23,659 nt of DNA from a virus, in IMG/VR virus record IMGVR_UViG_3300025120_009927, positions 1 to 23,659 of that record; one strand, 5' to 3'. The first letter of the stretch is position 1, and each line of letters starts with the position of its first letter. The position numbers were made by a program, and so were the translations under genes. This document shows positions 3,374-20,433 of the stretch, in pieces. Under the pieces are notes generated by a model, which did not search any database, had not been told where the DNA came from, and worked only from the letters and a program-made list of their open reading frames with translations.

Positions 3374-3387
3374 CGATATTTATAAAA
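3374..3387 (+). promoter_or_regulatory. GATATTTATA promoter-like motif upstream of S74 fibre gene
   Basis: CGATATTTATAAAA lies in the 55-base gap between genes, with the TATTTATA core at 3377-3384. It ends 34 bases before the ATG at 3419. The extended CGATATTTATAA form also occurs before the sheath gene, and AGATATTTATAA before the tube gene. Late-promoter function is inferred. Confidence 0.5.
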
Positions 3388-3418
3388 GACAGCAACAAAC
3401 GAACAAACTTTATAACTC

Positions 3419-4492: not shown

Positions 4493-4507
4493 TTCTTATA
4501 TTAAAGA

Positions 4508-5059: not shown

Positions 5060-5060
5060 G

Positions 5061-5504
5061 ATGGCAGTACATACTTACGGAACAACAAATTTAAGTTTTA
5101 GTTCATTTGATACATGGTCAAACAGTGTATCTAGTGATTCTAATGTTACTATGAATAATGCATTAGGAGATGCTGTACCTTCGAATAGTAACCCGACAGC
5201 AGCTAGTGAAATATACAATAATAATTGGTTCTACGGAACCTTACAAGTATCATCAGGTGGATTTGTAGATATAAGTGCCACAGGATATTCAGTTGCAGAT
5301 AGTACAGGCGAATCACTTAAGAATGTAAACCTAGATGAAAGTAACCTAACACTTACTGCAGATGAAACTGCTGCATATCCTAGAACATTTGTTAGATGGA
5401 GAAGAGATAGTTCAAGTGGAGGTGAAATTAGCACTAACAGTACACTAACTATTTCATCAGGTACAGAAACATCTACTACAGTATTTTACGCAGAGTTTAC
5501 TTAA
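5061..5504 (+). CDS. Hypothetical Ser/Thr-rich virion-type protein
   Basis: This 147-residue protein starts one base after the preceding stop, so it is in the same transcript. It is rich in Ser, Thr, Asn and aromatic residues, with predicted beta strands throughout (TYGTTNLSFSSFDTW at the start; TVFYAEFT at the end). A bacterial-type repeat feel near the C-terminus (FVRWRRDSSSGGEIST then TLTISSGTE) suggests an Ig-like or InlB-type beta fold, but this is not a firm assignment. It has no cysteines or catalytic motif. It is the last fibre-region gene before the modification cassette and is probably a small virion component. Confidence 0.68.
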   Translation: MAVHTYGTTNLSFSSFDTWSNSVSSDSNVTMNNALGDAVPSNSNPTAASEIYNNNWFYGTLQVSSGGFVDISATGYSVADSTGESLKNVNLDESNLTLTADETAAYPRTFVRWRRDSSSGGEISTNSTLTISSGTETSTTVFYAEFT

Positions 5505-5514
5505 GAGTTAATTA

Positions 5515-5529
5515 AAAAGGTTTTTTTTG
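5515..5529 (+). promoter_or_regulatory. AAAAGG ribosome binding site supporting TTG start at 5527
   Basis: AAAAGG (5515-5520) is separated by six T residues from TTG at 5527-5529. The downstream frame has no ATG until far into the protein (residue 97), so this TTG is the best initiation codon for the first cassette gene. The run of eight T at 5521-5528 reaches into the start codon. Confidence 0.5.
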
Positions 5530-6381
5530 AATACATATTGGGTTTATGAAAATATACAGGAACGGGTATCTTTCTATAACAAGTTAGATACTCTCTTATT
5601 GTTAACTTCCGTCTACTTATGGAAGAAACACCACCCTACTTTTAACACCATTCTTTCTATTGATAAATTAACTTATGAATACCTCCATAACATAAATGCA
5701 CTGTACCTTTGGGATTCTGTTGAAATATTACCAAAACACGATGCTATTAATAAAGGAGTATTCTGGGCATCAGCAAAGTTAGAAAAATTAAGATTTGTAA
5801 AAGGACCAGCTATTATGATGGACCATGATTTCTTAATTTATAAAAACATATCAAAATTTTTAAAAGATAAACCATTCTTTGCCCATGAAGAAAATGGAGA
5901 CCAGTATTACGATACCGCATGGAATCCATTTATACAACAAGTAAGTCATATTATTAACAGACCTAAACCTCATGCAGTTAATTGCTGCTTTGAATACTTT
6001 CCAGATAGTGAATTTACAAACCACTATGCAAAGACCAGTATAGAGTTAATGCAAAAGTTTACTGAATTGAAAGTACCTAACTCTAGATTTTTAGTCTTTT
6101 CAGAACAACTACTGTTAAAGCACATGTTAGATTATCATAATATACAATATGATACCTTACTTAATGAAAAATGGAATGCGAAAGGTAAATACTATGAGCA
6201 AAGCGATAAAGGTCATATGTCGTTTATTGAAAGCAATACTACCTATAGACATTATTGGATGGACAAACCCTTAATAAGAAATAACAAGGAAGGGTTTAAT
6301 CTTGAAGGAGAAATCACTATATTAAATAATATACTCAGACGTACTGAAGTAAATTTAGAATATATTAACAATGCTCTTTAA
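5527..6381 (+). CDS. Putative GT-A fold glycosyltransferase (DUF6734-like)
   Basis: This 284-residue protein starts at TTG with AAAAGG six bases upstream. The N-terminal half reads like a nucleotide-sugar binding GT-A domain. It has alternating helices and strands leading to AIMMDHDFLIYK (residues 95-106), where the Asp-x-Asp (D99, D101) sits at the end of a hydrophobic strand, as in metal-dependent GT-A transferases. FWASAKLEKL before it and the FFAHEE segment after it recall the DUF6734-type putative glycosyltransferases. No signal or membrane segment is seen, so it should be cytoplasmic. It opens the coupled cassette and its 3' end overlaps the methyltransferase gene by 11 bases. The glycosyltransferase call is by motif and context; sugar donor and acceptor are unknown. 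Confidence 0.62.
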   Translation: MNTYWVYENIQERVSFYNKLDTLLLLTSVYLWKKHHPTFNTILSIDKLTYEYLHNINALYLWDSVEILPKHDAINKGVFWASAKLEKLRFVKGPAIMMDHDFLIYKNISKFLKDKPFFAHEENGDQYYDTAWNPFIQQVSHIINRPKPHAVNCCFEYFPDSEFTNHYAKTSIELMQKFTELKVPNSRFLVFSEQLLLKHMLDYHNIQYDTLLNEKWNAKGKYYEQSDKGHMSFIESNTTYRHYWMDKPLIRNNKEGFNLEGEITILNNILRRTEVNLEYINNAL

Positions 6382-7138
6382 CTTAGAATACATAAAACAA
6401 CACCTCACCAACAATCAACGTAAAGTGGAGGACGAAATAGGTAAAGTACATACCTATTACGACCCTGTACCTTATCGATGGGCACATGGAGCAACTGAAT
6501 ATTCTTTAGGAGATGGACTTCTTATATACTCTGTTATACATTTTATGAGAGCTAAAGTATGTGTTTGTTTAGGGTCCGGAGGAGGATTTGTACCACGTAT
6601 TATGACTCAAGCTCGACAAGACCTGTATGATGCAGGTATATTTGAAGGGGATAATGGTATGAGCTGGGGGGATATAGGTACAACTTACGTAGTAGATGCA
6701 GCTAATGAAATAGGTGGAAAGGTAAATTGGTTAGGTAAAGATTCATTTTTTAGAGAGAAGTTTTGCCCTAGAATTATAAACGATACCACTAAGAATGCTT
6801 ATTATAACTTTTTTGTAAAAGAGGATATAAAGATAGACTATATACATATTGATGCTGGACATTCATACGAAGACGTAAAACAAGACTTTAATTTATATAG
6901 TAAGTTATTATCACCTAATGGAATTATATCACTTCATGATACAGATATTAACTTTTCTAAAAACTATATTATTACTAAAGATATAACTGATCAAAACGAC
7001 CATCATGAATTTGCTGAAGGACCTTCTAAGTTTATAGAAGAAATATCAGATGAGTGGCAACGTTTTGATTTCTTTAATGAAGGAATACTACCTTCCAAAC
7101 CAAGTTCAACAGGGTTAACACTAATAAAGCATGCCTAA
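6371..7138 (+). CDS. Class I SAM-dependent methyltransferase (Methyltransf_24-like)
   Basis: This 255-residue protein has a Rossmann-type methyltransferase pattern. Motif I is VCLGSGGGFVP (residues 65-75). The second strand is TYVVDA (105-110), whose Asp would contact the SAM ribose. IDYIHIDAGHSYEDVKQD (155-172) and GIISLHDT (184-191) are characteristic of the Methyltransf_24 family. Members commonly act in polysaccharide or secondary-metabolite pathways, often as O-methyltransferases on sugars. It overlaps the upstream glycosyltransferase gene by 11 bases and the downstream GT2-like gene by 8. The simplest reading is methylation of a sugar made or transferred by its neighbours. The acceptor is not knowable from sequence. 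Confidence 0.82.
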   Translation: MLFNLEYIKQHLTNNQRKVEDEIGKVHTYYDPVPYRWAHGATEYSLGDGLLIYSVIHFMRAKVCVCLGSGGGFVPRIMTQARQDLYDAGIFEGDNGMSWGDIGTTYVVDAANEIGGKVNWLGKDSFFREKFCPRIINDTTKNAYYNFFVKEDIKIDYIHIDAGHSYEDVKQDFNLYSKLLSPNGIISLHDTDINFSKNYIITKDITDQNDHHEFAEGPSKFIEEISDEWQRFDFFNEGILPSKPSSTGLTLIKHA

Positions 7139-7970
7139 TTTAGTTACAGTAGTGGGAGAGAATACACATATTCTTCCTCATATGTTAAAACATTACGAAA
7201 ATAAAATAGATAAAGCATACATATGTGTTTACCAACAAGGTAAAAACGACGGTATACTAAACGAAATAGAAGAGTTAGGTATTACACCTTATATGGTGTT
7301 TACTGAGGATAAGTACAATTGGAATAGAGTTACAGAAATATACAACTCAGTAAAGGAAACCAAACCTAACGATTGGTGGATAGTTGCTGATGATGATGAA
7401 CTACAAGTATACCCTGAACCAATTGAGGACATCGTAGATAACTGTGAGAGACATGGATATGACTTTGTAACAGGAGGTTTCTTAGACAGAATAGGTATAG
7501 ATGGCATATTTCCTGAAGTTACGAGAGAGACTAACATACACGAGTCTTTTCCATTAGCAGGTTTCTTTAGGTACCCAATGTCTGGAGCTTGTCCTAATAA
7601 AGCTACCTTAATGAAAGGACATCAAAAAATTTCACCCGGTCAACATTATGCAGTATTTAATGACGGTTCCAATAGTTGGGGTGCAAAACACCCTAAAAGA
7701 ATGCCAATAGAAGAGGTGTTTACTCAAGTACACCATTTTAAATGGGATAAAACATGTGTGGATAGAATAAAAAAAGTAGCAGATAATAACGAAGTTTATT
7801 CTTACTCAGATGAATATAGAGTTATGTACAATGCTATTAAAGATTCCAATTGGAAAATAGATGTAGATAATATTAAGTATTTAGTTGAGGATCTGAAAGA
7901 ATTTTCTTATATTAGATATAATGACTACCCACACTGGACTACTTTAAAAAATAAAATCGTTACAATATGA
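7131..7970 (+). CDS. GT2-like glycosyltransferase (Glyco_tranf_2_4 type)
   Basis: This 279-residue protein resembles the Glyco_tranf_2_4 branch of GT-A enzymes. Its N-terminal strand (LVTVVGENTHILPHML) is followed by a helix. DWWIVADDDELQVYP (residues 81-95) supplies an acidic DDDE cluster at the usual place of the metal- and nucleotide-binding DxD motif. Near the C-terminus HHFKWDKT (201-208) matches the His-containing strand that follows the acceptor region in this family. No membrane helix is present, so it is probably a soluble cytoplasmic transferase. Its start overlaps the methyltransferase gene by 8 bases and its stop overlaps the next small gene as ATGA. The sugar specificity is unknown. 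Confidence 0.75.
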   Translation: MPNLVTVVGENTHILPHMLKHYENKIDKAYICVYQQGKNDGILNEIEELGITPYMVFTEDKYNWNRVTEIYNSVKETKPNDWWIVADDDELQVYPEPIEDIVDNCERHGYDFVTGGFLDRIGIDGIFPEVTRETNIHESFPLAGFFRYPMSGACPNKATLMKGHQKISPGQHYAVFNDGSNSWGAKHPKRMPIEEVFTQVHHFKWDKTCVDRIKKVADNNEVYSYSDEYRVMYNAIKDSNWKIDVDNIKYLVEDLKEFSYIRYNDYPHWTTLKNKIVTI

Positions 7971-8170
7971 GTGCAGACAATTACGAACAGCAGAGATTAA
8001 TTTTAGAAGAAAGAAAGACTAAAGCAACTGAAAAGATTGCAAGATGCTTAGATGCCTTAACTTTATGGTTTGAAGAAATAGATAAAGACGGGTGGAATGA
8101 AAGAGCACAGTTTTATTTATCAGAATTTCAAAAATTAGTACCTGAAAAAGATGAGTCAAAAGAATCATAA
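7967..8170 (+). CDS. Small charged helical protein in glycosylation cassette
   Basis: This 67-residue protein is predicted almost wholly helical, with a heptad-like charged first half (YEQQRLILEERKTKATEKIA) and a Trp/aromatic patch (LTLWFEEIDKDGWNERAQFYL). Its start overlaps the GT2-like stop by 4 bases (ATGA), and its 3' end overlaps the GT7 gene by 20 bases. The tight coupling supports a real gene. It has no cysteines or catalytic motif. It could be an adaptor or stabiliser for the flanking glycosyltransferases or a small virion component. I do not recognise the family. Confidence 0.68.
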   Translation: MSADNYEQQRLILEERKTKATEKIARCLDALTLWFEEIDKDGWNERAQFYLSEFQKLVPEKDESKES

Positions 8171-9596
8171 GCTTGGCATAATTATTCCCTATAGAGATAG
8201 AGCTAATCAGTTATTTGAGTTTAAAAAAGAGATTGATAACCATATAAATTTTGATTATGAGTTAATTGTAGTCGAACAGTTAGGAAATCAAGATTTTAAT
8301 AGAGGTAAACTACTGAATATAGGCTTTGTTAAGGCAGAGGAATTAGGATGTGATTATGTAGTATTTCACGACGTTGATATGATACCGGTTAATGTTGACT
8401 ATTCGTATGTCGATAAACCAGTACACCTTATTACGGAGTTAGACTTACCAGAAGGTACTGCTAGGACTTTATTTGATGAGTATTTCGGCGGAGTTACCTT
8501 ATTTCCATCTAATATCTTTAGGCAAATAAACGGTTATTCTAATGAGTACTGGGGATGGGGTTTTGAAGATGATGATTTACTACTTAGATGTCAAGAGAAT
8601 CATATAAAATTAGACGAAAAGAAGGTATTACAAAAAGGTAGAGAAGGAGTAGCATTAGAATTTAACGGTAAAGATTCTTTTGTTAAGTGTCCTAACATTA
8701 TTTCATCATATAGAAACTTTACCATCTTTTGTTCATTTACCATTGACAAGCTAACTATTCAGGACTACGAAATAACCGATGAGATGTCGGTTTTCTCTAT
8801 ACCTGGCTTTGATACTGCATTAAATTACAACTCATTTAGAGACTTTGTATTTCAATTTTGGAAAAAAGACTTAAGTTCCATATCTATACCATCTGATAAG
8901 TTTCCTGAAGGAGCTTATAATGTTGCAATTACAATAGACAATATGGCATCTAACTCTAAAGATGAATTTGGTGAGTATGTACCTAATATTAAAATGTTTA
9001 TTAACGGTAACTATGTAGATCACAGTTTCTTTGATAAGTTAATACCTCTGCAGGAGCAAGACTTTCTTTATTTAGGAGTTGGTAATCCAGAAAGAGATGC
9101 TAAACAAAATTGGTTTAACGGCACTATAAGTAGTTTTGCAGTTTACAACGAAGTATTAAATGATGACCTATGTAAACAGATTACAGCCAATATTAATAAC
9201 AGTTTATTTAAATTTAAAGATTCAGAATTTCTTAGGTTGTATTATGACATGAAGTTTTTAGATGAAAATAGAGTTATTGATTTAACCGGAAACGGTAATG
9301 ATGGTTATGGAAGTAACATTAACCAAGTCCCAACACAATATAGCACAGAAACCTCTATTCCTATACCATGTAGAAAAGAAGGTAAATACAAAGCATTATC
9401 TCATAGTGAAAACGGTTATAAAGATGGTTACTGGGTAAGTTGGAATAGTAGAAAGAATCAAATTAACTATTACTCTAAGTTCTATAAAGATAGGTCTAAA
9501 TATACAGAAGACGGTATTTCCACTCTACCTAATAACTACAAAATTAGAGATGAGTTTACAAATAATAATTTCCACCATTTAGAAGTTCAGATATGA
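8151..9596 (+). CDS. GT7 galactosyltransferase-like enzyme with inserted LamG-like domain (copy 1)
   Basis: This 481-residue protein carries the beta-1,4-galactosyltransferase (GT7) signature in order: FNRGKLLNIGF (49-59), FHDVDMIP (72-79, metal-binding DVD), YFGGVTLF (111-118) and YWGWGFEDDDLLLRC (133-147). About 220 residues of LamG/concanavalin-like sequence follow (about 167-385), with LEFNGKDSFVKCP, an IKMFINGNYVD strand, a WFNGTISSFAVYNEVL segment and a DLTGNGNDG end. GT7-type sequence then appears to resume: GKYKALSH (411-418) matches the GRYRMIRH region holding the third metal ligand, and TEDGISTL (452-459) matches the SDGLNSL segment. LamG would thus be inserted in the loop that closes over substrate in animal enzymes. 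It is probably a cytoplasmic hexosyltransferase with built-in glycan recognition. It overlaps its paralogue by ATGA. Confidence 0.85.
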   Translation: MSQKNHKLGIIIPYRDRANQLFEFKKEIDNHINFDYELIVVEQLGNQDFNRGKLLNIGFVKAEELGCDYVVFHDVDMIPVNVDYSYVDKPVHLITELDLPEGTARTLFDEYFGGVTLFPSNIFRQINGYSNEYWGWGFEDDDLLLRCQENHIKLDEKKVLQKGREGVALEFNGKDSFVKCPNIISSYRNFTIFCSFTIDKLTIQDYEITDEMSVFSIPGFDTALNYNSFRDFVFQFWKKDLSSISIPSDKFPEGAYNVAITIDNMASNSKDEFGEYVPNIKMFINGNYVDHSFFDKLIPLQEQDFLYLGVGNPERDAKQNWFNGTISSFAVYNEVLNDDLCKQITANINNSLFKFKDSEFLRLYYDMKFLDENRVIDLTGNGNDGYGSNINQVPTQYSTETSIPIPCRKEGKYKALSHSENGYKDGYWVSWNSRKNQINYYSKFYKDRSKYTEDGISTLPNNYKIRDEFTNNNFHHLEVQI

Positions 9597-11014
9597 GTCA
9601 TAAATTAGGTGTCTGTGTTCCATACAGAAATAGAGAGCTACATATGCATGAGTTCATACCTAAACTAGGTAAGTACTTAAAGGGGCATAATATAGACTTC
9701 CAAATATACATTGTTCATCAAGTAGACGATAAGTTATTTAATAGAGGAGCCACTAAAAATATAGGAGCTAAGCATGCGTTTGAAGATGGGTGTGACTACA
9801 TTGTATGGCATGATATAGACATGATTCCGGAAGATAATGGAGGAGCTGATTATTCTTATCCTAAAGGTGGACCTAGACATATAGCTACTAAGATACAGCA
9901 AATGGATTACGAACTAAAGTATCATGAGTATTTTGGTGGAGCTGTACTGTTTACTAAAGAACATGTCGAAGCAACAAATGGTTATTCCAATGACTATTGG
10001 GACTGGGGTATGGAGGATGATGATTTATTTTGGAGATGTCATCTAGAAGGTCTAACTAACGATACCTACTTACCAACAACTCTTAAGAATCAAAACTACT
10101 TACACTTTAATGGTAAAAATGCATATGCTAAAATACCATACCAAAGAGACTTTAAAGCACTAACTCAAAGATCTCATACTATATCAGCTTTAGTTAGGTG
10201 TTACCAACAACCAGATAAAAACGCAGTGTTTTTAATAGGTGATGATGAAAGAAAGTATGTTGAGTATCCGATTATAAGATTACCTGGTTATGACTATGGG
10301 TTATCATTTAATAACTCTAGAGCCTTATCTTTTACCTTTTGGAATGTATTCAATAAACACAATTACATGTGGTTAAAGAGGTACGATAAACAATGGAGTT
10401 GGGTAACAGCAGTTATTAGTGAAGAAGATCACATGGCTCACTTGTACTTAAATGGTACTGAAGTAGATTCTAAAGTTGGTTTAGGAAGCCCATCACCATT
10501 AAGGTTTGACGGTAAGTTAAAAAACTACGGAAGTAACGATTACTATCTAGGTCTATCACCATCTCAACCTGATGATAGTAGTTATAAGTACTTTAAAGGT
10601 GATGTAGCATTAGTACGAGGATGGAATAGAGCATTGTCCCCTAAAGAAGTTAAAAATTTACATAGGATATCACCAGATGAAGGATTAGTATTAGATGTTG
10701 ATTTTAACTACCCTAAGTCACAAGTAGACACTTACAATACAGAAGTTAAACAAGAAGATATAAAAATACCTAATTCTATTATACCTCATAGAGTAGAAGG
10801 ACGTATGAGATGCTTACCTCATGAAGACGAAGGAATAGTAGATGGAAAGTTTGCTAAAGGAGAAACTACTGCTAGAAATGAAAGACGTTATGTTTTAGAA
10901 ATGCAAAAAGGTTCTTGGTCCTATAAAGATGACGGTATTAAACAATTAAAATATGAATTAGTAGAGGAAAAGCAATTAACACCATGGGCTAAAATGCTAA
11001 ATATTAAATTATGA
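9593..11014 (+). CDS. GT7 galactosyltransferase-like enzyme with inserted LamG-like domain (copy 2)
   Basis: This 473-residue tandem paralogue of the gene at 8151 has the same domain order. The first part of GT7 gives FNRGATKNIGAKHAF (49-63), WHDIDMIP (72-79, acidic metal-binding pair), YFGGAVLF (113-120) and YWDWGMEDDDLFWRC (135-149). LamG-like sequence fills about 168-375, with LHFNGKNAYAKIP, HLYLNGTEVD, YYLGLSPSQP and FKGDVALVRGWNRALSP. The GT7 C-terminal part then resumes with GRMRCLPH (403-410) and KDDGIKQLKYEL (445-456), matching the metal-ligand and SDGLNSLTY regions of animal enzymes. Catalytic acids and the histidine are all present, so both copies could be active with different acceptors. 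It is coupled on both sides by ATGA, downstream to the first radical SAM gene. Donor and acceptor sugars are unknown. Confidence 0.85.
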   Translation: MSHKLGVCVPYRNRELHMHEFIPKLGKYLKGHNIDFQIYIVHQVDDKLFNRGATKNIGAKHAFEDGCDYIVWHDIDMIPEDNGGADYSYPKGGPRHIATKIQQMDYELKYHEYFGGAVLFTKEHVEATNGYSNDYWDWGMEDDDLFWRCHLEGLTNDTYLPTTLKNQNYLHFNGKNAYAKIPYQRDFKALTQRSHTISALVRCYQQPDKNAVFLIGDDERKYVEYPIIRLPGYDYGLSFNNSRALSFTFWNVFNKHNYMWLKRYDKQWSWVTAVISEEDHMAHLYLNGTEVDSKVGLGSPSPLRFDGKLKNYGSNDYYLGLSPSQPDDSSYKYFKGDVALVRGWNRALSPKEVKNLHRISPDEGLVLDVDFNYPKSQVDTYNTEVKQEDIKIPNSIIPHRVEGRMRCLPHEDEGIVDGKFAKGETTARNERRYVLEMQKGSWSYKDDGIKQLKYELVEEKQLTPWAKMLNIKL

Positions 11015-12381
11015 ACCCAGCAGAGGTAAAAAAGAAACTTGATAAGGTAGGGTGTGGGTTCTGTTTAGCAAAATGGACTCAAGTTACTCTGCATCTTGGT
11101 ACCGGTATGACTCACTCTTGTCATCACCCTTCACCTCATAAAATACCTTTAGCAGAACTAAAACGTAACCCTTCTGCGTTACATAATACCCGACATAAAA
11201 AGTCTCGTAGAAAGGAAATGCTTGAAGGCAAACGTCCTGATGAATGTAACTACTGCTGGAATGTAGAAGATAATTCTAATTCTTTTTCAGATAGAGTATT
11301 TAAATCTACAGAACCATGGTCAATTAGTGATTTCCAGAAAATAAAAGACAGTGATTGGAGAGAAGATTTTAACCCTAGGTATGTTGAAGTTTCATTTGGT
11401 AATGCTTGTAACTTTGCATGTGCTTATTGTGGACCTCAATACTCATCTAAATGGGTAGAAGAAATAGAAAAACACGGTGGATATCCTACCGAACATAATT
11501 TTAATGCAATAGACCAGATAAAAGAAAGAGGCCATATGCCTTATAAACAATCTGAACATAACCCATATGTAGAAGCATTTTGGGAATGGTGGCCAAGTTT
11601 ATACCCAGACCTTCATACATTTAGAATGACCGGTGGAGAACCTTTAATGTCAAAAGACGTCTTCAAAGTATTAGAGTACATTAGAGATAACCCAACCATA
11701 AACCCAAACCTATCTTTATCAATTAATACGAACCTAGGAGTACCGGATAAATTAGTAGATAGATTTATAGAGATTGCAAAAGATCTTTGTGAAAATAACA
11801 AAGTTAGAGAGTTAATAGTATTCACATCAGTAGAAGCTACAGGTTCACAAGCTGAATATAGTAGGTTTGGTTTGAAGTATGATAAATTTTGGGAAAACGT
11901 AGATAAAATTCTTACAGTACTACCTAAAGTTACTATTAACATAATGGCAACCTATAATGCTTTATCCGTATTTAGTTACAGTAATTTAATTGATAAGGTT
12001 TTTGAATATAAAAAGAAACATGCTAACGGACAAAGGTATTGGACTTCCTCTATACAATTAGACACTGCTTATTTGAGATGGCCAACACACCTATCGGTTA
12101 AGATATTAAAACCAGAACAAAAAGAACTGATATTGCAAGCAGCAGAAAAAGCTCTTTACTACGGCATTAAGGAGTTTACAAAGTATAATTATGGGTTTTC
12201 TAATGTAGAGATACAGAAGTTAAAGAGACTTTACGATTACGCTATTGGTTTAGACGATTTTAATGTGGATAAATATAGAAAAGACTTTGTTAAGTTTGTA
12301 GATGAATATGATAATAGAAGAGGTACAAATTTTTTAGAAACCTTTCCACAATTTCAACAGTTGTATGCTGAAAATAGATAA
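11011..12381 (+). CDS. Radical SAM enzyme with N-terminal twitch-type domain (subtype A, copy 1)
   Basis: This 456-residue protein has two cysteine regions. The N-terminal region has C18 (FCLAKW), C37 (SCHHP), C79 and C82 (ECNYCW), the pattern of a twitch/SPASM-like auxiliary Fe-S domain placed ahead of the catalytic domain. The radical SAM motif is CNFACAYC (C133, C137, C140), which would hold the 4Fe-4S cluster that cleaves SAM. TGGEP (207-211) is the SAM-binding motif. The family matches what is annotated as twitch domain-containing radical SAM protein. Such enzymes abstract hydrogen from peptide or sugar substrates; which one here is unknown. It shares HKIPL-x-EL, ALHNT and NPYVEAFW with the gene at 12949. 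Its start overlaps the GT7 stop by ATGA, and its end overlaps the LamG-like gene by 17 bases. Confidence 0.87.
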   Translation: MNPAEVKKKLDKVGCGFCLAKWTQVTLHLGTGMTHSCHHPSPHKIPLAELKRNPSALHNTRHKKSRRKEMLEGKRPDECNYCWNVEDNSNSFSDRVFKSTEPWSISDFQKIKDSDWREDFNPRYVEVSFGNACNFACAYCGPQYSSKWVEEIEKHGGYPTEHNFNAIDQIKERGHMPYKQSEHNPYVEAFWEWWPSLYPDLHTFRMTGGEPLMSKDVFKVLEYIRDNPTINPNLSLSINTNLGVPDKLVDRFIEIAKDLCENNKVRELIVFTSVEATGSQAEYSRFGLKYDKFWENVDKILTVLPKVTINIMATYNALSVFSYSNLIDKVFEYKKKHANGQRYWTSSIQLDTAYLRWPTHLSVKILKPEQKELILQAAEKALYYGIKEFTKYNYGFSNVEIQKLKRLYDYAIGLDDFNVDKYRKDFVKFVDEYDNRRGTNFLETFPQFQQLYAENR

Positions 12382-12949
12382 AGGAGAACCATGGCTGTTT
12401 TGGCCTAGTAGTATCTGTGAAACATTCCCTGAAAAACCTGCTAACTTAATACTATCAGGTGAGTATAATTTTGAACTAGAATTAAGTTTCATACTAAAAG
12501 ATGAATCACAAGAACAAAAAACTATTTTTACAATAGTACCACATTATACTGGATTAGATTTATATAATGATCAAACAGTTTTTACAGTGACTTTTGAAGA
12601 TAAAGCTAGATACTATAGACTGCCAAGAACTATATCACCACATAAAGTAACCAACATTAGAATAGAACATAAAGTAAAAGAGCATTTTAAAATATTTATT
12701 GATAAGGAAGAAGTTGTTTCTGAGTCATTAGTTGATAAAGTTTTAGGTAAGTGTCCTCATCCTCATATAATATTTGGAGCAGGTAATTTTCCTAAAAATA
12801 ATTTTAACCTTAATTATACAGACATAAACCTACTTAGATTTAGTCTTTTTCAGAATGATAGTTTATTAGCTGATCATTTCTTTGAAGAAAGAATATTCGA
12901 CAAGTATGTAGATGTTACTGGTAATTTAAATTTTATCCATAAAGTATAA
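12365..12949 (+). CDS. Free-standing LamG/concanavalin-like protein
   Basis: This 194-residue beta-rich protein lies between two radical SAM genes. Although divergent, it has the strand pattern of the LamG-like domains in the two GT7 genes. YNFELELSFIL is followed by an FTIVPHYTGLDL stretch, then KIFIDKEEVVSES in place of the MFINGNYVD strand, then PHIIFGAGNFPKNNFN in place of YLGVGNPERD, and INLLRFSLFQNDSL near the end. The fold is known for carbohydrate binding. No signal peptide is seen, so it would work in the cytoplasm or in the virion. The start at 12365 lies inside the preceding gene, and the end overlaps the next gene as TAATG. A glycan-binding partner of the radical SAM enzymes is a fair guess, not shown. 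Confidence 0.66.
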   Translation: MLKIDKGEPWLFWPSSICETFPEKPANLILSGEYNFELELSFILKDESQEQKTIFTIVPHYTGLDLYNDQTVFTVTFEDKARYYRLPRTISPHKVTNIRIEHKVKEHFKIFIDKEEVVSESLVDKVLGKCPHPHIIFGAGNFPKNNFNLNYTDINLLRFSLFQNDSLLADHFFEERIFDKYVDVTGNLNFIHKV

Positions 12950-14571
12950 TGGGAGTTTTCGCAAAAAAAGAAACTGAATCTTTTCAGGAGTACAGAGATA
13001 GGGTTGTAGATAAGTTGTCACCATCGTTTTGTGGTGCAAAATGGTACAATGCTACAATATGGCTAGGTAATGGACAGACAACGTCTTGTCACCACCCTCC
13101 TGCTCATAAAATACCTTTAGACGAATTAAAGTTTAGTTATAAGGCACTCCACAACACAAAGTACAAGAAAGCAGTACGAAAGCAGATGATGGAGGGTATT
13201 AGACCTAAAGAGTGTGAGTATTGCTGGAAGATAGAAGACTTAGGTAAAGATAAAGTCTCCGATAGAGTTTACAAATCAGTTATATATACTGATGAAGAGC
13301 TTAAAGATGCGAAAGAAACAATGGGTTACACTGAGGATGTAGATCTCAAAACTTTAGAGATAGCATTTGATGCCAATTGCAACTTTGCTTGTTCTTATTG
13401 TAACTCTTCTTTTTCAACCACATGGCAAAAAGATATTAAAGTAAATGGTCCTTACCAAAATTTAGTATCTGACGGAGCAGCAGCATTTCAACATGATGGT
13501 TCTCATGCTATGCCTTACGGTAGAAAAAATAAAGATAATCCATATGTAGAGGCTTTTTGGAAATGGTGGGAAGCTGAACTTCAATTTAGTTTAAGAGAAT
13601 TAAGAGTAACAGGAGGTGAACCTTCTATGTCTCCAGATTTTTGGAAACTTATGGAATGGTGGAAGAAGCATCCAGAATGTACAGTTCCATTTGCTGTTAA
13701 CTCTAACTTAGGTCAAAAGAAACAGTTACTAGATGCTTTAATTGAATCTTCTCATAGTTTTAAAGATTTTTCTATTTACACTTCTTGTGAAGCTGTTGGT
13801 TTACAAGCTGAATACATTAGATACGGTCTAGAATGGGACCTTTGGTTAAAGAATATGTATAGAGTAAACGAAGAAGGAAACATAAAATCTGTAAACGTAA
13901 TGATGACAATCAACAGTTTATGTTTATTTTCTATAACGGAATTTATGGATGAAATGTTAAAATTGAAAAAGAAATATGGCCATCAAGCTGCTGTAATGTC
14001 ATTTAATATTTTACGTTTTCCTTCTTTTCAATCTATCGTTACCTTACCAGAAAACATTAGAATGGAAAGAGCTTTAGCACTTGAAGATTGGTTAGCTGTT
14101 AATTGGAAAAATGGTACTAATGGATTTATGGACTACGAAAGAGACGGTGTACTAAGACTAATAGAGTATACCAGAAAAGTAGATACAGGACATGAATTTA
14201 CTTCTTCATTAGAATCCAGAGTAAGAGACTTTAGATCTTTTTACCAACAGTATGATAAAAGAAGAAAGAAAGACTTTTTGGAAGCATTTCCTATGTTAAA
14301 AACTTGGTATTTGGATATACCAGAAACTAATTTAGCACCCCTAGTTAAAGCTATAGATGGAGATGATGCCAAATCTAATAGGTACGTAGATGGAGTTCTT
14401 AAACAAGCAAAAGACGAAGGGTGGGTACTTAATCCTCAATGGGCTAACCCAGGGTCTGAACAGTACATTGAACCAGACGAACAACAACAGGATGATATGA
14501 TCGATTTAGTTTCACAATTAAATAAAGATCAAGATAAAAACTATGCTGGTAGTCAAGTAAAAAAGATATGA
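12949..14571 (+). CDS. Radical SAM enzyme with N-terminal twitch-type domain (subtype A, copy 2)
   Basis: This 540-residue protein is a paralogue of the gene at 11011. N-terminal auxiliary-cluster cysteines are C28 (FCGAKW), C47 (SCHHPPAHKIPL), C89 and C92 (ECEYCW). The catalytic motif is CNFACSYC (C144, C148, C151) and the SAM-binding motif is TGGEP (221-225). The residue pattern NPYVEAFWKWW is nearly identical to that of copy 1. It is longer because of an extra ~60-residue polar, acidic C-terminal tail ending in a Gln/Asp-rich stretch (EPDEQQQDDMIDLVSQL). The start forms TAATG with the LamG-like gene and the end forms ATGA with the next radical SAM gene. The tail may be a docking segment. 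The substrate is unknown. Confidence 0.87.
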   Translation: MGVFAKKETESFQEYRDRVVDKLSPSFCGAKWYNATIWLGNGQTTSCHHPPAHKIPLDELKFSYKALHNTKYKKAVRKQMMEGIRPKECEYCWKIEDLGKDKVSDRVYKSVIYTDEELKDAKETMGYTEDVDLKTLEIAFDANCNFACSYCNSSFSTTWQKDIKVNGPYQNLVSDGAAAFQHDGSHAMPYGRKNKDNPYVEAFWKWWEAELQFSLRELRVTGGEPSMSPDFWKLMEWWKKHPECTVPFAVNSNLGQKKQLLDALIESSHSFKDFSIYTSCEAVGLQAEYIRYGLEWDLWLKNMYRVNEEGNIKSVNVMMTINSLCLFSITEFMDEMLKLKKKYGHQAAVMSFNILRFPSFQSIVTLPENIRMERALALEDWLAVNWKNGTNGFMDYERDGVLRLIEYTRKVDTGHEFTSSLESRVRDFRSFYQQYDKRRKKDFLEAFPMLKTWYLDIPETNLAPLVKAIDGDDAKSNRYVDGVLKQAKDEGWVLNPQWANPGSEQYIEPDEQQQDDMIDLVSQLNKDQDKNYAGSQVKKI

Positions 14572-15914
14572 AAGTAAAACCAAAAGACGGTAATAAAACT
14601 TTTTGTATGGCTCCTTGGACTCATACCTACGTATCACCTCAAGGTGAACGAAGGCTGTGCTGTGCTTCTAGAGAAAAGTCTTCTTGGATAAAACAATATA
14701 TTGATATTGAAAGTGATGAAAAAAGTAAAGAGTTTGTACCCACTAAAGTAGAGGATCATTGGAATAGCGAATACATGAAAGATATTCGTAAAAGATTAAT
14801 GGCAGGAGAAGAAATTGAACAGTGTCAAGTTTGTAACCATAAACTTTTAAATTTAAATACATACAGAGGTTACTTTAATCATCAATTATTCCCTGATAAA
14901 ATAGATGAGGCATTTGACAAAACAGGAGAGGATGGACATACGGATATGAAACCTATATCTTATGATTACCGTATATCTAACTTATGTAATTTTAAATGTA
15001 GAATGTGTGGGGATCAACTATCTTCTTCATGGGAATCAGAAAGACGTCAAATGAAAAATTGGTCACCAGAAGGTGATCCTTGGATGACTCCTGAAAATAG
15101 AACTAAATTACAAAATTTTACAAAAGAAGTTTTAGAAAAAGAACTATGGCAAGCAGTACATGAAGAACGTATTGAAGAAATTTACTGGGTAGGAGGAGAA
15201 CCTTTAATGTTTCAGATACATTGGGATATTATGGAACACCTAGTCAAAACTGGTCAATCTAAAAATGTAATAGTAAGGTACAATACAAATTTATCAAGAG
15301 TGGAATGGAAAGGCATTAAACTATATGACTTACTCAAACACTTTAAACATGTTAATATATCAGCTTCTATAGATGGTACAGGAGCTATAGTTGAATACGT
15401 AAGAGATGGTATTAAATGGGATAGATGGTTAAACAACTTTAAACAGGGTCTATTTTTAAAAGACCTTTACGGTGATGCAGGTATAGTCTTAGATGTTACG
15501 ATAACTTCCCCAGGGTTGTTTGCAATGAAAGATTTATTTGATTTAGCATTGGAGTTAGATGTTATTTCTTATATAAAAAAGACATTTGAATTCGATCCTG
15601 CAATCGTAATGTCTCCTTCTATGATTCCTCGTCGCATACTAGAACCTTTAATAGATGATATATTAGATTACATTAAACCTAAAGTTACCGATAAGACGCA
15701 GATTTACATTGATGCACTAGAAGATGTTAGAAATATTAAAACCTTTGATGAAAAGTATCCCAATTGGTTAGAAGGGCTAGAAAGAGGTAAAACTAACCTA
15801 AAAAGAGTAGATAGATTTAGAAAATGTCAATACGATATTGACGAAATATTTAAAGATAATAATACAGAGTTATACAACTGGTGGAAAACAATACCCTATG
15901 AAACTTACATTTAG
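14568..15914 (+). CDS. Radical SAM enzyme with N-terminal twitch-type domain (subtype B, copy 1)
   Basis: This 448-residue protein is the first of a second radical SAM subtype. The N-terminus has FCMAPWTHTYVSPQG (C13) and a double cysteine LCCASREK (C31, C32), then QCQVCN (C86, C89), a twitch/SPASM-like auxiliary cluster site ahead of the core. The catalytic motif is CNFKCRMC (C140, C144, C147), followed by the SAM-contacting WVGGEP (207-212). The FCxAPW...CC form of this domain is typical of SPASM-family maturases and of the twitch-domain radical SAM proteins common in phage and surface-polysaccharide loci. It overlaps its neighbours by 4 and 17 bases. Which residue or sugar it modifies is unknown. 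Confidence 0.87.
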   Translation: MKVKPKDGNKTFCMAPWTHTYVSPQGERRLCCASREKSSWIKQYIDIESDEKSKEFVPTKVEDHWNSEYMKDIRKRLMAGEEIEQCQVCNHKLLNLNTYRGYFNHQLFPDKIDEAFDKTGEDGHTDMKPISYDYRISNLCNFKCRMCGDQLSSSWESERRQMKNWSPEGDPWMTPENRTKLQNFTKEVLEKELWQAVHEERIEEIYWVGGEPLMFQIHWDIMEHLVKTGQSKNVIVRYNTNLSRVEWKGIKLYDLLKHFKHVNISASIDGTGAIVEYVRDGIKWDRWLNNFKQGLFLKDLYGDAGIVLDVTITSPGLFAMKDLFDLALELDVISYIKKTFEFDPAIVMSPSMIPRRILEPLIDDILDYIKPKVTDKTQIYIDALEDVRNIKTFDEKYPNWLEGLERGKTNLKRVDRFRKCQYDIDEIFKDNNTELYNWWKTIPYETYI

Positions 15915-16914
15915 AAACAAACAAAACAAAACAATCGATGTAGATTGCACTATATTTAATTCTCCTTTAACAGATAAATGGGGAAGACTATTAGAGGGAG
16001 TCATACAAAATGACTTTATAGCATATGTTAAAAACTTTTCTTTAGTAGGAAATTTAGCAGAAAACAGACCACCAGAACAAATTATAAAAGAATTAGTAGA
16101 AGGTGTAAGAATATTAAAAGCAGCATCTTGGTACCCTGAATATGGTAAAATTAATGAGGATTTTGAAACTCTATTAACTACTTATGATCAAGACATGTTA
16201 AATGACCTACATCATCACTTTGATCAACTACAAGGACAGATTTGGAACCCAACTCATTTTCTAGCTCAAGCAACCGGTAAAGAAAGATTTGCTATATCTA
16301 AATTAAATCTGAGTTGTCATGAATTAGAAGCATATCACGATTCAAAAGAAAAGAAAGAACAAGAGCAACCACACAGTTTGTATTATTATTACTCTATAGC
16401 TGGTACACCAGTGTTTGAGGGGATAACATTAGAAGAAAAAATGCAGTTTAGTAGAACAGTTAGTAATGGTATGATATACCTACATTATGCACAGACTGGT
16501 AAAACGTGGTACGAAGCATATTGTGATAATGATGAAACAGTTCCAACAGAAAATATAACAGAACATAGAACAGTATCAGGTGAATTTTCAGCTCATATCG
16601 GAAAACCATTTAAATTCGAAGTAGATGAAGGGTTTAAAAAATATATTAAGACTAGAGGTAGAGACCCAGAAGATCCAGATTTAGCTATTGGGTATTGCCC
16701 TATTGGACAAATAAATTCAGTTAATGGAATAGATATTTCTGATTACGATGCATGTCAAAAAGTTTTACAAGAATATGATGATTTTTATGCTATTGAATTT
16801 AATGGATTTACAAATACATATGATTATAGAGCAGAAGATAGTAAATACCTAACTAAAATAGAAGGTGTTATGGATACATGGGAGGTTAACGATGATTTAA
16901 AAGAATTTGCATAA
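15898..16914 (+). CDS. Conserved-looking protein of unknown function in the radical SAM cassette
   Basis: I place the start at the ATG at 15898 (MKLTFRNKQNKT), giving 338 residues. The more upstream ATG at 15838 would overlap the previous gene by 77 bases, whereas 17 bases matches the short overlaps used elsewhere in the cassette. I do not recognise a family. Visible features are an N-terminal KLTFRN/VDCTIF beta region, a Trp-containing LTDKWGRLLEG segment and a His-rich helix LNDLHHHFDQLQGQIW (101-116). There is also LNLSCHELEAYH (136-147) and an aromatic strand LYYYYSIAG. His and Asp are frequent enough for metal binding, but no known motif is evident. It ends as TAATG with the oxygenase-like gene, so a partner role in that step is possible. 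Confidence 0.75.
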   Translation: MKLTFRNKQNKTIDVDCTIFNSPLTDKWGRLLEGVIQNDFIAYVKNFSLVGNLAENRPPEQIIKELVEGVRILKAASWYPEYGKINEDFETLLTTYDQDMLNDLHHHFDQLQGQIWNPTHFLAQATGKERFAISKLNLSCHELEAYHDSKEKKEQEQPHSLYYYYSIAGTPVFEGITLEEKMQFSRTVSNGMIYLHYAQTGKTWYEAYCDNDETVPTENITEHRTVSGEFSAHIGKPFKFEVDEGFKKYIKTRGRDPEDPDLAIGYCPIGQINSVNGIDISDYDACQKVLQEYDDFYAIEFNGFTNTYDYRAEDSKYLTKIEGVMDTWEVNDDLKEFA

Positions 16915-17585
16915 TGAGCACACTACAAATACATCCAGAAGTAGATATATCTAATATTCCTATTTGGAAAACCAGTCTTACTGACTTTAGTTACGACAGA
17001 AATTTTTTATCTCAAGATAAACTGTGGAAAACTAACGAACTCTCAAATGAAAGCTATACGGTGTATAATAAAGAGAGGTTAGATTATATCCCTGAAAGTT
17101 CTAATGAGTTTACCCAATGGTTGGAAGAATTTAAAGGTAGTAACGATATATTTACATTATTAGGTAATTTACTAGATAGTGATAAGAACAAAAAATACGT
17201 ATATTCAGAATACCCTCTTGAGTTTAAAAATACAACAATAGAAAAGTTTTTAAGAAAAAACTGTCAGTTAATATATAGAGTCATAAACGATGGACCTAAG
17301 TATAGTATGTACAAACACTACGACAACAGGAGTGTATTTGGTAACTTTTTTATAAACCTAGCAAATAACCCCGATGTGGCAACTGAGTTTTACAATACAG
17401 GTACTACTCTGAATACAGACACATTGGATAAAGATTCTGGTATTTTTTACAAAGGTCCAACAACACGTTGTGACGGGTTATTTTTTATGAATAGTTATCA
17501 CACATGGCACGGTGTAAATAACCGGTCTAACACTAACAGGTACATACTAAATATTGTAGTGTACTTTAATGAACTAACGTATTAA
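16914..17585 (+). CDS. 2-oxoglutarate/Fe(II)-dependent oxygenase-like protein
   Basis: This 223-residue protein has a double-stranded beta-helix oxygenase pattern. The metal triad would be H135-x-D137 (YKHYDNRS) with a distal His at H199 (SYHTWHGV; H196 is an alternative). R209 (NRYILNIVVYF) is placed to bind 2-oxoglutarate. The spacing and the final NRY-x-LN beta strand fit phage and bacterial 2OG-Fe(II) enzymes that hydroxylate proteins, nucleotides or sugars. It is joined by TAATG to genes on both sides, directly before the last radical SAM gene. O2-dependent hydroxylation next to oxygen-sensitive radical SAM enzymes suggests successive tailoring of one substrate. Which substrate is not visible. 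Confidence 0.74.
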   Translation: MSTLQIHPEVDISNIPIWKTSLTDFSYDRNFLSQDKLWKTNELSNESYTVYNKERLDYIPESSNEFTQWLEEFKGSNDIFTLLGNLLDSDKNKKYVYSEYPLEFKNTTIEKFLRKNCQLIYRVINDGPKYSMYKHYDNRSVFGNFFINLANNPDVATEFYNTGTTLNTDTLDKDSGIFYKGPTTRCDGLFFMNSYHTWHGVNNRSNTNRYILNIVVYFNELTY

Positions 17586-18946
17586 TGGAGAAAAAATACA
17601 TAATAGATAAAGATAATAAATCTTTTTGTTTAGCACCTTGGATGTCTACTCACGTATGGCCAGATGGTAAAACTTTTCCATGTTGTATATGGGACATAAA
17701 AAAACCTGTAGGTAATGTCAATAAAAACTCATTAAAAGAGATTTGGAATAGCCCCGACATGAAAGATGCACGGTTAAAAATGTTAAGCGGAGAGAAAGTA
17801 TCTGCTTGTGACCGTTGTGATCAATCAGAACATACTGGATATGACTCTTACAGGAAACATTTCAATGAAGACCATGGTGATAAGATGCACTACATACAGC
17901 AGACTAATGCCGATGGTTCTTATGATGAAATGAATCTGCATTTATGGGATTTAAGACTATCTAACTTTTGTAACTTTAAATGCCGTTCATGTGGTTTCGG
18001 ATTAAGTTCATCTTGGCATTCAGATCAAAACGCTTTAGCTGTTAATCCTAGGATGGATGCAGTGGGTAGTGGGTATTTTGGTAATGATGTTGCAGATAAA
18101 GCTCTTTTATCGGTAAATGGTAAAACTGATTTTCTTCACATGATGGAGGACCATTATAAATGTGTAGATGAAGTATATTTTGCAGGAGGAGAACCTCTTT
18201 TAATGCCTGAGCATTATCAAATTTTAGATAAGTTACTTGAGTTAGGAAGAACAGATGTACAGATAAGGTACTCAACTAATTTTTCTAGATTTAAATTTGG
18301 TAAAAAGCATGTATTTGATTATTGGAAACATTTTAAAAATTTACAAGTTTGGATTAGTGTTGACGGTATAGGTAAAGTTGGTGAGTATGTTAGACATGGA
18401 TTTAACGACAAAAATTTTGAAAATCAAATTAAGATATTTGCTGAGTCTGGTATTAAACCACCTGATACTGGTTATATGATTACTTACGGTGTAATGAACT
18501 TTTTACACTTATTCGACATGGTACTATCCTTTATTGAAAGAGACTATGTAGACTACGATGTTCCATTCCAAGGTAATAGACTAATGTACTTTAGTCCTAT
18601 TTCTTTCCCACAGTATTTAGACAGCAGATACTTACCAAACTGGACTAAGATAAAGTTTTTAGAAAGATTAAAAATGTTTCCTGATGAATTAAAAGCGACA
18701 GGAGCTAAAGAATGGTTTATAAAAGACGTTCTAAATAAACTTAACGTCATATACAGTAGGAGTTTAGAGTACGAGTTTAGTCATAAAGAAATGAATGAAA
18801 TGATTGTTACTACAGAGGAACTTGATAAATTAAGAGCAGAAAATTTTGATGATGTTTTTACTTACAACCTAAATGACTTTTCATATTCAGACCCTAACAA
18901 TAAACCACCTGAATTTCATGATTTTGATTTATCTAAAGTACACTAA
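17585..18946 (+). CDS. Radical SAM enzyme with N-terminal twitch-type domain (subtype B, copy 2)
   Basis: This 453-residue protein is a paralogue of the gene at 14568. The auxiliary domain has FCLAPWMSTHVWPDG (C15), PCCIWD (C33, C34) and ACDRCD (C75, C78). The NSLKEIWNSPDMKDARLKM helix between them is the classic SPASM/twitch linker. The radical SAM motif is CNFKCRSC (C129, C133, C136), preceded by LRLSN, and FAGGEP (199-204) follows. All cysteines expected for one catalytic and one auxiliary cluster are intact. It is coupled by TAATG to the oxygenase-like gene upstream and to the SGNH-like gene downstream. It might epimerise, dehydrogenate or cross-link a glycan or peptide; the specific reaction is unassigned. 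Confidence 0.87.
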   Translation: MEKKYIIDKDNKSFCLAPWMSTHVWPDGKTFPCCIWDIKKPVGNVNKNSLKEIWNSPDMKDARLKMLSGEKVSACDRCDQSEHTGYDSYRKHFNEDHGDKMHYIQQTNADGSYDEMNLHLWDLRLSNFCNFKCRSCGFGLSSSWHSDQNALAVNPRMDAVGSGYFGNDVADKALLSVNGKTDFLHMMEDHYKCVDEVYFAGGEPLLMPEHYQILDKLLELGRTDVQIRYSTNFSRFKFGKKHVFDYWKHFKNLQVWISVDGIGKVGEYVRHGFNDKNFENQIKIFAESGIKPPDTGYMITYGVMNFLHLFDMVLSFIERDYVDYDVPFQGNRLMYFSPISFPQYLDSRYLPNWTKIKFLERLKMFPDELKATGAKEWFIKDVLNKLNVIYSRSLEYEFSHKEMNEMIVTTEELDKLRAENFDDVFTYNLNDFSYSDPNNKPPEFHDFDLSKVH

Positions 18947-20100
18947 TGAATAAAGTTATAGAAGAAGCTGAAAAAATTAGCACTGACTTTATAAATTCTA
19001 ATAATAAGTTTATAGAAACAGGTGATCCATTTGTAAAGTACATTGCATCTCATAAAGGATTAGCCTCTTTCGGTAGACCAAACGTTACCGTTAATATAAA
19101 GAAAGAAAAATCAGCTGATTCTTTAATGTACCCAAACTCGGTAGTATTTGAAGCTACCTATAATTTTGATGAACAAGGTAGACGTAAAACATCAGTAACT
19201 TTTGGCGATAAAGACTCTTATGGTATATTTTTTGGAGATGCTCACTGTTTTGGAGAAGGGTTGAACGATAATGAAACTCTACCTTACTTTTTTGAAAAAT
19301 ACAATTCTAATTACGTATCACTTAATTACGGTTTTCTAGGTCATGGTCCAAATCACATGTTGTATTGGTTTAACACTCCTGAATTTATAGAGGAATTTAA
19401 AGACACTAAAGGAAAAGTATTTTTTGTGTATAGAGATGATGCAATTAAAGTGAGTGTAGGAGAAGTACCATGGGGAGAAGGTTACCCAAAGTATAATATT
19501 CAAAATGGTAAGATTAAATACGAAGGTTCATACGGAGGAGATAATTACAAACCTAATAATATGTACCTACCTTCTATGTTTACTAATAAGGATTTTAATA
19601 TAACCTCAGAAATTTTATTAGAGTGTAAAAATAAACTTAAGGAAATATCTAAAGATTTAGAACTATACATTATTATTATACCTTTAAGTTTCTCTAACTA
19701 CCAAATTCAACCTTTACTAGAAAGTAAAGATATTAATGTAGTTAACTTATATACTACGGATCTAGAATACCACACAAAAGCTGACGCTCGATTTTTAGAC
19801 GGTGTACATACAAAACATTCTAATGAGTTAATAGTTAAATTAGTTAACACACATATAAAAGGTAATTTAACAAACGTAGACAATAGTCATAAGGATTATA
19901 ATTCATTACAAGAACTTGAGAAACGTTTAGATCTAGAGGCAATGTACATACCCTGTATGGTAGATTTTCCGTATGATGATGCAGGTGTAATAATTTCTAA
20001 TGTACTAAAGAGTTATAAAGGTGTGCCGGTAAAGTACGATTACCTTTTAAAATATTTAGAAAAGGAACATACAAAAAAATTAAAAAGAGTTACAACATGA
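18946..20100 (+). CDS. SGNH hydrolase-like protein lacking the serine nucleophile
   Basis: This 384-residue protein resembles SGNH/GDSL-type esterases. Residues 95-105 read FFGDAHCFGEG, followed by LNDNETLPYFFEKY, where active family members have GDS-x-T-FGEG. The strand YVSLNYGFLGHGPNHM (123-138) supplies block II/III-like Gly and Asn. FLDGVHTK (283-290) supplies the usual D-x-x-H (D285, H288). The nucleophile serine is replaced by A99 (GCT at 19240-19242), and C101 lies two residues later. Active SGNH enzymes remove or transfer acyl groups on glycans. This one may be inactive, binding only, or use another residue. It sits behind a radical SAM gene (TAATG) and before a small gene (ATGA). Confidence 0.72.
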   Translation: MNKVIEEAEKISTDFINSNNKFIETGDPFVKYIASHKGLASFGRPNVTVNIKKEKSADSLMYPNSVVFEATYNFDEQGRRKTSVTFGDKDSYGIFFGDAHCFGEGLNDNETLPYFFEKYNSNYVSLNYGFLGHGPNHMLYWFNTPEFIEEFKDTKGKVFFVYRDDAIKVSVGEVPWGEGYPKYNIQNGKIKYEGSYGGDNYKPNNMYLPSMFTNKDFNITSEILLECKNKLKEISKDLELYIIIIPLSFSNYQIQPLLESKDINVVNLYTTDLEYHTKADARFLDGVHTKHSNELIVKLVNTHIKGNLTNVDNSHKDYNSLQELEKRLDLEAMYIPCMVDFPYDDAGVIISNVLKSYKGVPVKYDYLLKYLEKEHTKKLKRVTT

Positions 20101-20348
20101 AAAATATTAAATTAGAAGAAAGTGAATTAATCATGCTAAATCAACTTAAGAATGCTAGGTCCGGTATCATTAATGAGTTTGGCAAGATATCTATTATAGA
20201 GTTACAACTATCACAACGAAAAAGCATAGCAGAAGAGAACTTTCAGAAGATAGAAGATGCACAGACAGGTTTTGCAAAAGACCTTGAAGAAAAGTACGGA
20301 AAGGGCACTATAGATATTGACAGTGGGGTATTTATACCGTTAAAATAG
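20097..20348 (+). CDS. Small coiled-coil-like hypothetical protein
   Basis: This 83-residue protein is mostly helical with heptad-like spacing (LEESELIMLNQLKNA, then IELQLSQRKSIAEENFQKI). It ends in a short beta-like tail, DIDSGVFIPLK. Phages often encode small proteins of this kind near structural genes. Its start overlaps the SGNH-like stop by ATGA, making it the last gene of the coupled cassette before a 111-base gap. No cysteines, signal peptide or catalytic motif are seen. It could be a scaffold or adaptor for the cassette or a small virion factor. Confidence 0.72.
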   Translation: MKNIKLEESELIMLNQLKNARSGIINEFGKISIIELQLSQRKSIAEENFQKIEDAQTGFAKDLEEKYGKGTIDIDSGVFIPLK

Positions 20349-20419: not shown

Positions 20420-20433
20420 CGATATTTATAAGA
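20420..20433 (+). promoter_or_regulatory. GATATTTATA promoter-like motif upstream of the sheath gene
   Basis: CGATATTTATAAGA, with the core at 20423-20430, ends 29 bases before the sheath ATG. The 10-base form GATATTTATA is identical to those before the S74 fibre and tube genes, the best case for a phage-specific late promoter element. The gap holds no gene and no clear terminator. Confidence 0.5.

Follow-up and report, generated by a model that had tools for sequence, protein, structure and literature searches.

Radical S-adenosylmethionine (SAM) genes beside glycosyltransferase genes have been on record in phages since 2010, with no function shown for them in the accessible text of the reports (PMC2853527; PMC7029224; PMC5332604). 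In the Campylobacter phages CP220 and CPt10, five radical SAM genes, an amidinotransferase gene and sugar-transferase genes form what the consulted part of the report calls an "interchangeable" module (PMC2853527; FN667788), in which radical SAM, pentein amidinotransferase and sugar-nucleotide transferase genes make up a coupled run 3′ of baseplate and tail genes. In pelagimyophages, according to the available sections of their description, tail fibre genes share a hypervariable island of the structural region with several glycosyltransferase genes and radical SAM cassettes (PMC7029224), and the excerpted account of the T4-like marine phage TARA_ERS488813_N000010 gives it 12 radical SAM genes (PMC5332604). 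Phage glycosyltransferases can also act on the virion: in mycobacteriophages, such enzymes modify capsid and tail-tube proteins of the phage that encodes them (Freeman et al, 2023, as cited in excerpts of PMC12363180 and PMC12619734). Here we describe a cassette of glycosyltransferase and radical SAM genes that lies between the tail fibre and tail sheath genes of an uncultured marine tailed phage, IMG/VR virus record IMGVR_UViG_3300025120_009927. The analyzed stretch, referred to below as the window, is the complete 23,659-base record, a linear genome fragment.

Our preferred reading, to which we assign a probability of about 0.5, is that the cassette encodes a late phage pathway that glycosylates adhesin or fibre proteins of the virion and tailors the resulting glycan. 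The original prediction, made from the window alone, had proposed a late pathway acting on fibre or adhesin proteins or, alternatively, on the host surface. Synteny with the fibre gene, a putative late promoter outside the cassette, and the companion protein s5061 now support its late, fibre-linked placement, while the acceptor is still a candidate and modification of the host surface stands as a rival.

Results

Gene content of the cassette

At positions 5527-20348 of the window, 15 plus-strand open reading frames (ORFs) follow one another without gaps, with neighbouring genes overlapping or abutting at spacings of -1 to -20 nt (all genes named below are on the plus strand). All ORFs and overlaps of the predicted fifteen-gene coupled run are therefore present, but its borders move at both ends. 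The last gene, g15 (20097-20348), encodes an 83-residue protein that lies ahead of the sheath gene in relatives without the cassette. Because these cassette-free relatives, cultured Flavobacterium phage immuto included, keep g15 next to the sheath gene, it is ruled out as a cassette member and belongs to the sheath module, leaving 14 genes, g1 to g14. Upstream, the unit reaches to position 5061, the start of the gene for s5061 (5061-5504).

The original prediction listed glycosyltransferase-like genes, a methyltransferase, and two GT7 enzymes with LamG insertions, all of which are borne out by family matches. Genes g5 (8151-9596) and g6 (9593-11014) each encode GT7N and GT7C domains (about 1e-16 to 1e-19) with Laminin_G_3 within, and by these sequence criteria both are members of the GT7 family of β-1,4-galactosyltransferase type. 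In profile comparison, the GT7 portion matches β-1,4-galactosyltransferase structures (beta4GalT1) at 9e-50, and the LamG insert matches the lectin domains of sialidases and pentraxins. The insert, ~200 residues long, is located between the EDDD motif (EDDDL..R) and the metal-binding histidine (P.R...H); despite its presence, the GT7 core motifs (DxD and the WGWGxEDDD type) and this histidine are kept across 21 aligned proteins. Upstream of the GT7 pair are g1 (5527-6381), a DUF6734 family member (1.3e-7) that is glycosyltransferase-like from context only and for which a PDB profile search gave no relative; g2 (6371-7138), a Methyltransf_24 methyltransferase (Pfam, 1.6e-10); g3 (7131-7970), a GT2-type glycosyltransferase (Glyco_tranf_2_4, 1.3e-6); and g4 (7967-8170), a 67-residue conserved helical protein, aligned across 17 homologues, which is nearly always found between g3 and g5. 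Further downstream, g8 (12365-12949), predicted to be a LamG protein, can be called LamG-like on one match, an hhalign alignment to the LamG insert of the GT7 enzymes (E 1.6e-5).

Four genes encode radical SAM proteins, numbered here in order of position: radical SAM 1 (g7, 11011-12381), 2 (g9, 12949-14571), 3 (g10, 14568-15914) and 4 (g13, 17585-18946), the last two with a SPASM-like N-terminal part. All four match NF033640 (N_Twi_rSAM) with 314 to 349 bits (1e-93 to 1e-104), above the curated cut-off of 170 bits for the whole-protein score, and all have the CX3CX2C and GGEP motifs and the N-terminal auxiliary cysteines, in agreement with their earlier assignment as twitch-type radical SAM enzymes. 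CX3CX2C is intact in 468 of 468 full-length radical SAM ORFs. A literature search gave no substrate for the N_Twi_rSAM subfamily.

Three further genes accompany the radical SAM enzymes. The first of these, g11 (15898-16914), more likely starts at the ATG at 15898 than at 15838 and is a conserved partner of radical SAM 3 in two phage lineages, adjoining it in many jumbo contigs as it does in the window; its AlphaFold2 model (pLDDT 76) had no match in the PDB, and a PDB profile search was also empty. For g12 (16914-17585), described as oxygenase-like, the motif HxD(NR)...H...R is invariant in 6/6 and may correspond to the HxD...H metal triad and distal arginine of 2OG-Fe(II) oxygenases, but the protein matches no Pfam, NCBIfam or PDB profile. 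Similarly, the description of g14 (18946-20100) as SGNH-like holds as a resemblance of motifs, but not as a family match in profile searches, including one against the PDB, and in all four homologues found the catalytic serine of block I is replaced by alanine, so that GDS becomes GDA. On this sequence evidence g14 is likely to be non-catalytic or to have a different chemistry.

A fixed 5′ block and an exchangeable 3′ part

Relatives of radical SAM 1 were confirmed by tblastn in 108 viral stretches and relatives of the GT7-LamG enzymes in 510. Dozens of IMG/VR contigs contain a near-invariant block in the order fibre-s4508-s5061-g1-g2-g3-g4-g5-g6-g7, often followed by g8 and g9, and the cassette recurs in dozens of phages, both relatives and even unrelated ones. 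Gene-order reconstruction places a variable part after this block, followed by g15 and the sheath gene. The variable part holds more radical SAM genes in some phages and, in others, a DegT aminotransferase, an epimerase, a UDP-sugar dehydrogenase, an arginine-deiminase/amidinotransferase-like protein or a carbamoyltransferase, so that the 3′ part of the cassette undergoes modular exchange between phages. Two mutually homologous families (c9, L085:11316-12419, and c18, L053:8935-9945; hhalign 99.9%) have no Pfam match and recur in the variable regions of many cassettes. In sheath-positive relatives that lack the cassette, among them the complete immuto genome, other genes fill the interval between fibre and sheath.

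Jumbo contigs of up to 374 kb carry the array radical SAM 1, radical SAM 2, radical SAM 4-like, radical SAM 3 and g11 behind a conserved run of virion genes; among the products of this run are a fibre-like protein that weakly matches Peptidase_G2 and a pair of proteins with a weak resemblance to glycosyltransferases. In jumbo contigs L037, L043-L085 and L170-L183, fibre-like genes are followed by two tandem genes for glycosyltransferase-like proteins and then by three to six N_Twi_rSAM genes in conserved order. A maximum-likelihood tree separates the radical SAM proteins of the window into four groups, each with members from jumbo contigs, of which 2 and 3 are strongly supported and 1 and 4 less so. 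Among cultured phages, radical SAM 1 has only distant homologues, in Vibrio phages K566 and K567, and the GT7-LamG enzymes have no match in 50,697 GenBank phage records. The sequenced genome of K566 encodes N_Twi_rSAM proteins, and this phage could serve for study of the radical SAM chemistry.

Bacterial relatives of radical SAM 1, among the matches listed, are mostly single genes from Bdellovibrionota. In metagenome-assembled genomes (MAGs) of this phylum (L188, L190-L195, L197-L206), single N_Twi_rSAM-type genes are scattered, and these predators share the radical SAM 1 family with the phages. More than one N_Twi_rSAM-type gene is present on each of two bacterial MAG contigs, L205 (where both strands carry them) and L208, which may derive from phages or represent a bacterial form of the array. 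L189 and L196, from Marinimicrobia and Pelagibacterales MAGs among the GTDB genomes, carry the cassette or neighbouring phage genes and are probably phage contigs binned with bacteria. The matches listed in one bacterial genome scan include no full cassette of bacterial origin. At this sensitivity, homologous cassettes do not show the concentration in bacterial polysaccharide loci that would have spoken against the original prediction, and the cassette-type blocks in bacterial bins are probably those of phage contigs.

A Ser/Thr-rich companion of the cassette

To compare loci with and without the cassette, we used those in which the fibre gene is present and at least 4 kb of downstream sequence is available, giving 58 loci with the cassette and 7 without. 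The gene for s5061 is present in 56/58 cassette loci and 0/7 cassette-free loci (Fisher 5e-8, a value that overstates the evidence, as the loci have a common ancestry and a number of them lie on one contig with another). The preceding gene, s4508 (4508-5059), a conserved protein that separates the fibre from the adhesin-like gene, is found in 57/58 and 3/7, respectively. Serine and threonine make up 21-33% of s5061 homologues and 32% of the window copy, the highest proportion among the window's proteins. The AlphaFold2 model of s5061 has a confident β-rich fold (pLDDT 87), and in a fold search the only matches, to adhesin and pilin domains, were weak and not significant. Across 12 contigs, pairwise divergence of s5061 correlates with that of the GT7 enzyme g6 at r 0.90, versus r 0.55 for the sheath. 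These features make s5061 a candidate acceptor or adhesin.

Late-promoter-like elements flank the cassette

The element TATTTATA occurs eight times on the plus strand of the window (779, 3377, 20329, 20367, 20423, 22117, 22213 and 22811), preceding the genes that start at 856, 3419, 20460 (three copies), 22234 (two copies) and 22848. This total is not unusual; the placement is, since the interval 3385-20328 has no copy against an expectation of 2.1, whereas the flanks, 6.7 kb in all, have eight against 0.64. The last copy before the cassette is the late-promoter-like element of the fibre gene (3377-3384), and the sheath gene has its own at 20423-20430, with the further copies at 20329 and 20367. 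In related loci, counting copies 10-150 nt before a gene, TATTTATA lies ahead of the sheath in 93/97, the tube in 90/90, the baseplate hub in 49/65 and the fibre in 15/23, versus 0/66, 0/58, 0/64, 0/65, 0/66 and 4/68 for g1 to g6 and none for g7 to g9 (0/48 to 0/71 across g1-g5 and g7-g9). In immuto, the element is found 19-38 nt before a fibre gene and before the genes for sheath, tube, hub and tape measure. It is strongly conserved in Immutovirus and its relatives and is unlike the T4 late consensus TATAAATA. Because TATTTATA is present before the fibre gene and absent inside the cassette, the cassette would share the fibre transcript, and by analogy with late promoters it looks co-transcribed with the fibre.

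Flanking genes

The flanks are tail genes, as had been predicted. The 5′ flank encodes a Phage_tail_C protein, an adhesin-like protein rich in glycine, and the S74 tail fibre (3419-4492), which has a Peptidase_S74 chaperone domain at its C terminus (Pfam, 1.1e-15) and matches tail fibre and baseplate families in PHROG. The glycine-rich protein (Gly_rich_2, 2043-2993) adjoins the fibre genes and is a plausible tip adhesin. On the 3′ side, domain and PHROG matches identify the tail sheath (20460-22199), the tube (from 22234) and the baseplate hub (from 22848). The window has no tRNA genes, and its G+C content is low and even over the cassette and near flanks. Shine-Dalgarno-like signals precede 1 of 25 window genes, and this near-absence fits a Bacteroidota host, as for the nearest cultured relative by sheath.

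Discussion

A possible pathway and its rivals

If the cassette modifies the virion, the GT2 or DUF6734 enzyme could start a glycan on serine or threonine (or asparagine) residues of s5061, the adjacent fibre, or both. The two GT7-LamG enzymes would then lengthen the glycan, gripping the growing chain through the lectin domains inserted in them. The methyltransferase and the N-twitch radical SAM enzymes, whose set is specific to each phage, could oxidize, epimerize or otherwise tailor it, with an aminotransferase, epimerase, UDP-sugar dehydrogenase, amidinotransferase or carbamoyltransferase contributing to tailoring in relatives. The biological role would be adhesion specificity or shielding. 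Several points weigh against this reading. GT7 enzymes usually extend glycans rather than initiate them on protein, our choice of the glycan-starting enzyme is a guess, and soluble glycosyltransferases can also act on host lipid-linked glycans. The linkage of s5061 to the cassette may be a matter of shared inheritance only, the cassette-free set being seven loci. Finally, TATTTATA is a putative late promoter by analogy with those of T4, judged from its position.

The main rival is that the enzymes alter a host surface glycan, O-chain or capsule, late in infection and thereby exclude competing phages or stop progeny from sticking to debris. A host-surface role was proposed for the glycosyltransferases of the pelagimyophage host-recognition cluster, in the sections of that report available to us (PMC7029224), and relatives of the window carry nucleotide-sugar enzymes of the surface-glycan type (DegT, epimerase, UDP-sugar dehydrogenase and carbamoyltransferase). 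However, the cassette is not accompanied by a membrane protein, GtrA, a flippase or a priming transferase: searches of 10 cassette contigs for a priming transferase (Bac_transf), GtrA or flippase found none, and 1098/1102 distinct ORFs of cassette regions have no membrane-type segment. With no GtrA or Bac_transf in the 10 contigs and hardly any membrane segments, the cassette does not resemble a Gtr-type O-antigen conversion system. The promoter placement also suggests expression with the fibre rather than early, and a host-surface role leaves the obligate Ser/Thr-rich companion s5061 unexplained. We therefore consider host-surface modification rather unlikely, while giving it more weight than any of the explanations that follow.

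The radical SAM enzymes and their partners might instead modify a peptide side chain of the fibre, the adhesin or g4, by chemistry like that of ribosomally synthesized and post-translationally modified peptides (RiPPs) or of protein maturases, with the glycosyltransferases serving a separate purpose. SPASM and twitch radical SAM enzymes often act on peptides, and g4 is a small conserved protein within the block. Yet g4 is conserved over its whole length, with no variable core, and full-length conservation among the 17 aligned homologues does not favour it as a RiPP precursor; the exchangeable 3′ genes encode sugar-tailoring enzymes, and GT7 enzymes dominate the conserved block, making a peptide product improbable. 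Less probable still is that general iron-sulfur or auxiliary metabolism genes have gathered in a hypervariable island with no shared product. The 3′ part does differ between phages, and radical SAM genes of T4-like environmental phages were read as iron-sulfur metabolism in the consulted text (PMC5332604), but the order and coupling of g1 to g7 are conserved and four orthologous radical SAM groups keep their order across unrelated phages. Least of all do we favour DNA hypermodification, that is, glycosylation and tailoring of a base by genes that lie near tail genes by chance. Such pathways are known to employ phage-encoded glycosyltransferases, carbamoyltransferases and radical SAM enzymes; against this stand the location of the cassette in a putative late, fibre-linked transcription unit and the lack of a thymidylate synthase/hydroxymethylase family gene in 9/10 cassette contigs. 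A Tet_JBP search was empty but its control was silent too, and it is not counted as evidence.

Returning to modification of the virion, a more specific form, which we put forward tentatively and hold to be somewhat short of an even chance, is that the cassette is a complete and exchangeable biosynthetic line that places a radical-SAM-tailored glycan on the fibre or adhesin of marine tailed phages, with host recognition or shielding changed by swapping enzymes while the adhesin sequence stays as it is. Whether such a modification exists is directly testable, given the gene arrangement, the candidate acceptor and the promoter logic. If true, host range and evasion of immunity or defence could not be read from the fibre sequence alone, and a new class of viral protein modification would be shared by jumbo phages and Immutovirus-like phages of about 160 kb. 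Much unexploited sugar or peptide chemistry would then lie in the N-twitch radical SAM enzymes. Uncultured viruses encode hundreds of relatives of the GT7-LamG enzymes.

Comparison with known phage modules

The statement in the original prediction that no described system has this set of genes was too strong, given the CP220 module and the pelagimyophage glycosyltransferase and radical SAM cassettes, as far as the accessible text of those reports describes them. The systems nevertheless differ. The CP220 radical SAM proteins are without the N-terminal twitch part and score at most ~31 bits against NF033640; in the accessible material no GT7-LamG protein is annotated, and the authors proposed a role in host metabolism rather than glycan tailoring. 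The pelagimyophage cluster lies between VrlC and gp14 and is dominated by GT8; the sections consulted describe no GT7-LamG pair or conserved block, and the authors read it as modification of the host O-chain (PMC7029224). The radical SAM genes of TARA_ERS488813_N000010 were, in the excerpted account, interpreted as iron-sulfur metabolism, and their position with respect to the fibre is not given in that passage. Glycosylation in mycobacteriophages, as cited in the excerpts, involves no radical SAM array, acts on capsid and tube rather than fibre, and is established by experiment, whereas the pathway proposed here is predicted from gene content. Immuto, the closest cultured relative by sheath (60%), shares the fibre-to-sheath interval and the TATTTATA elements but has no cassette and no N_Twi_rSAM gene anywhere in its 160-kb genome. 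In the literature searched, neither the GT7-LamG pair nor the fixed block nor the link to s5061 is described. Phage modules that combine radical SAM and sugar-transferase genes are already known, and these three features would be the new part.

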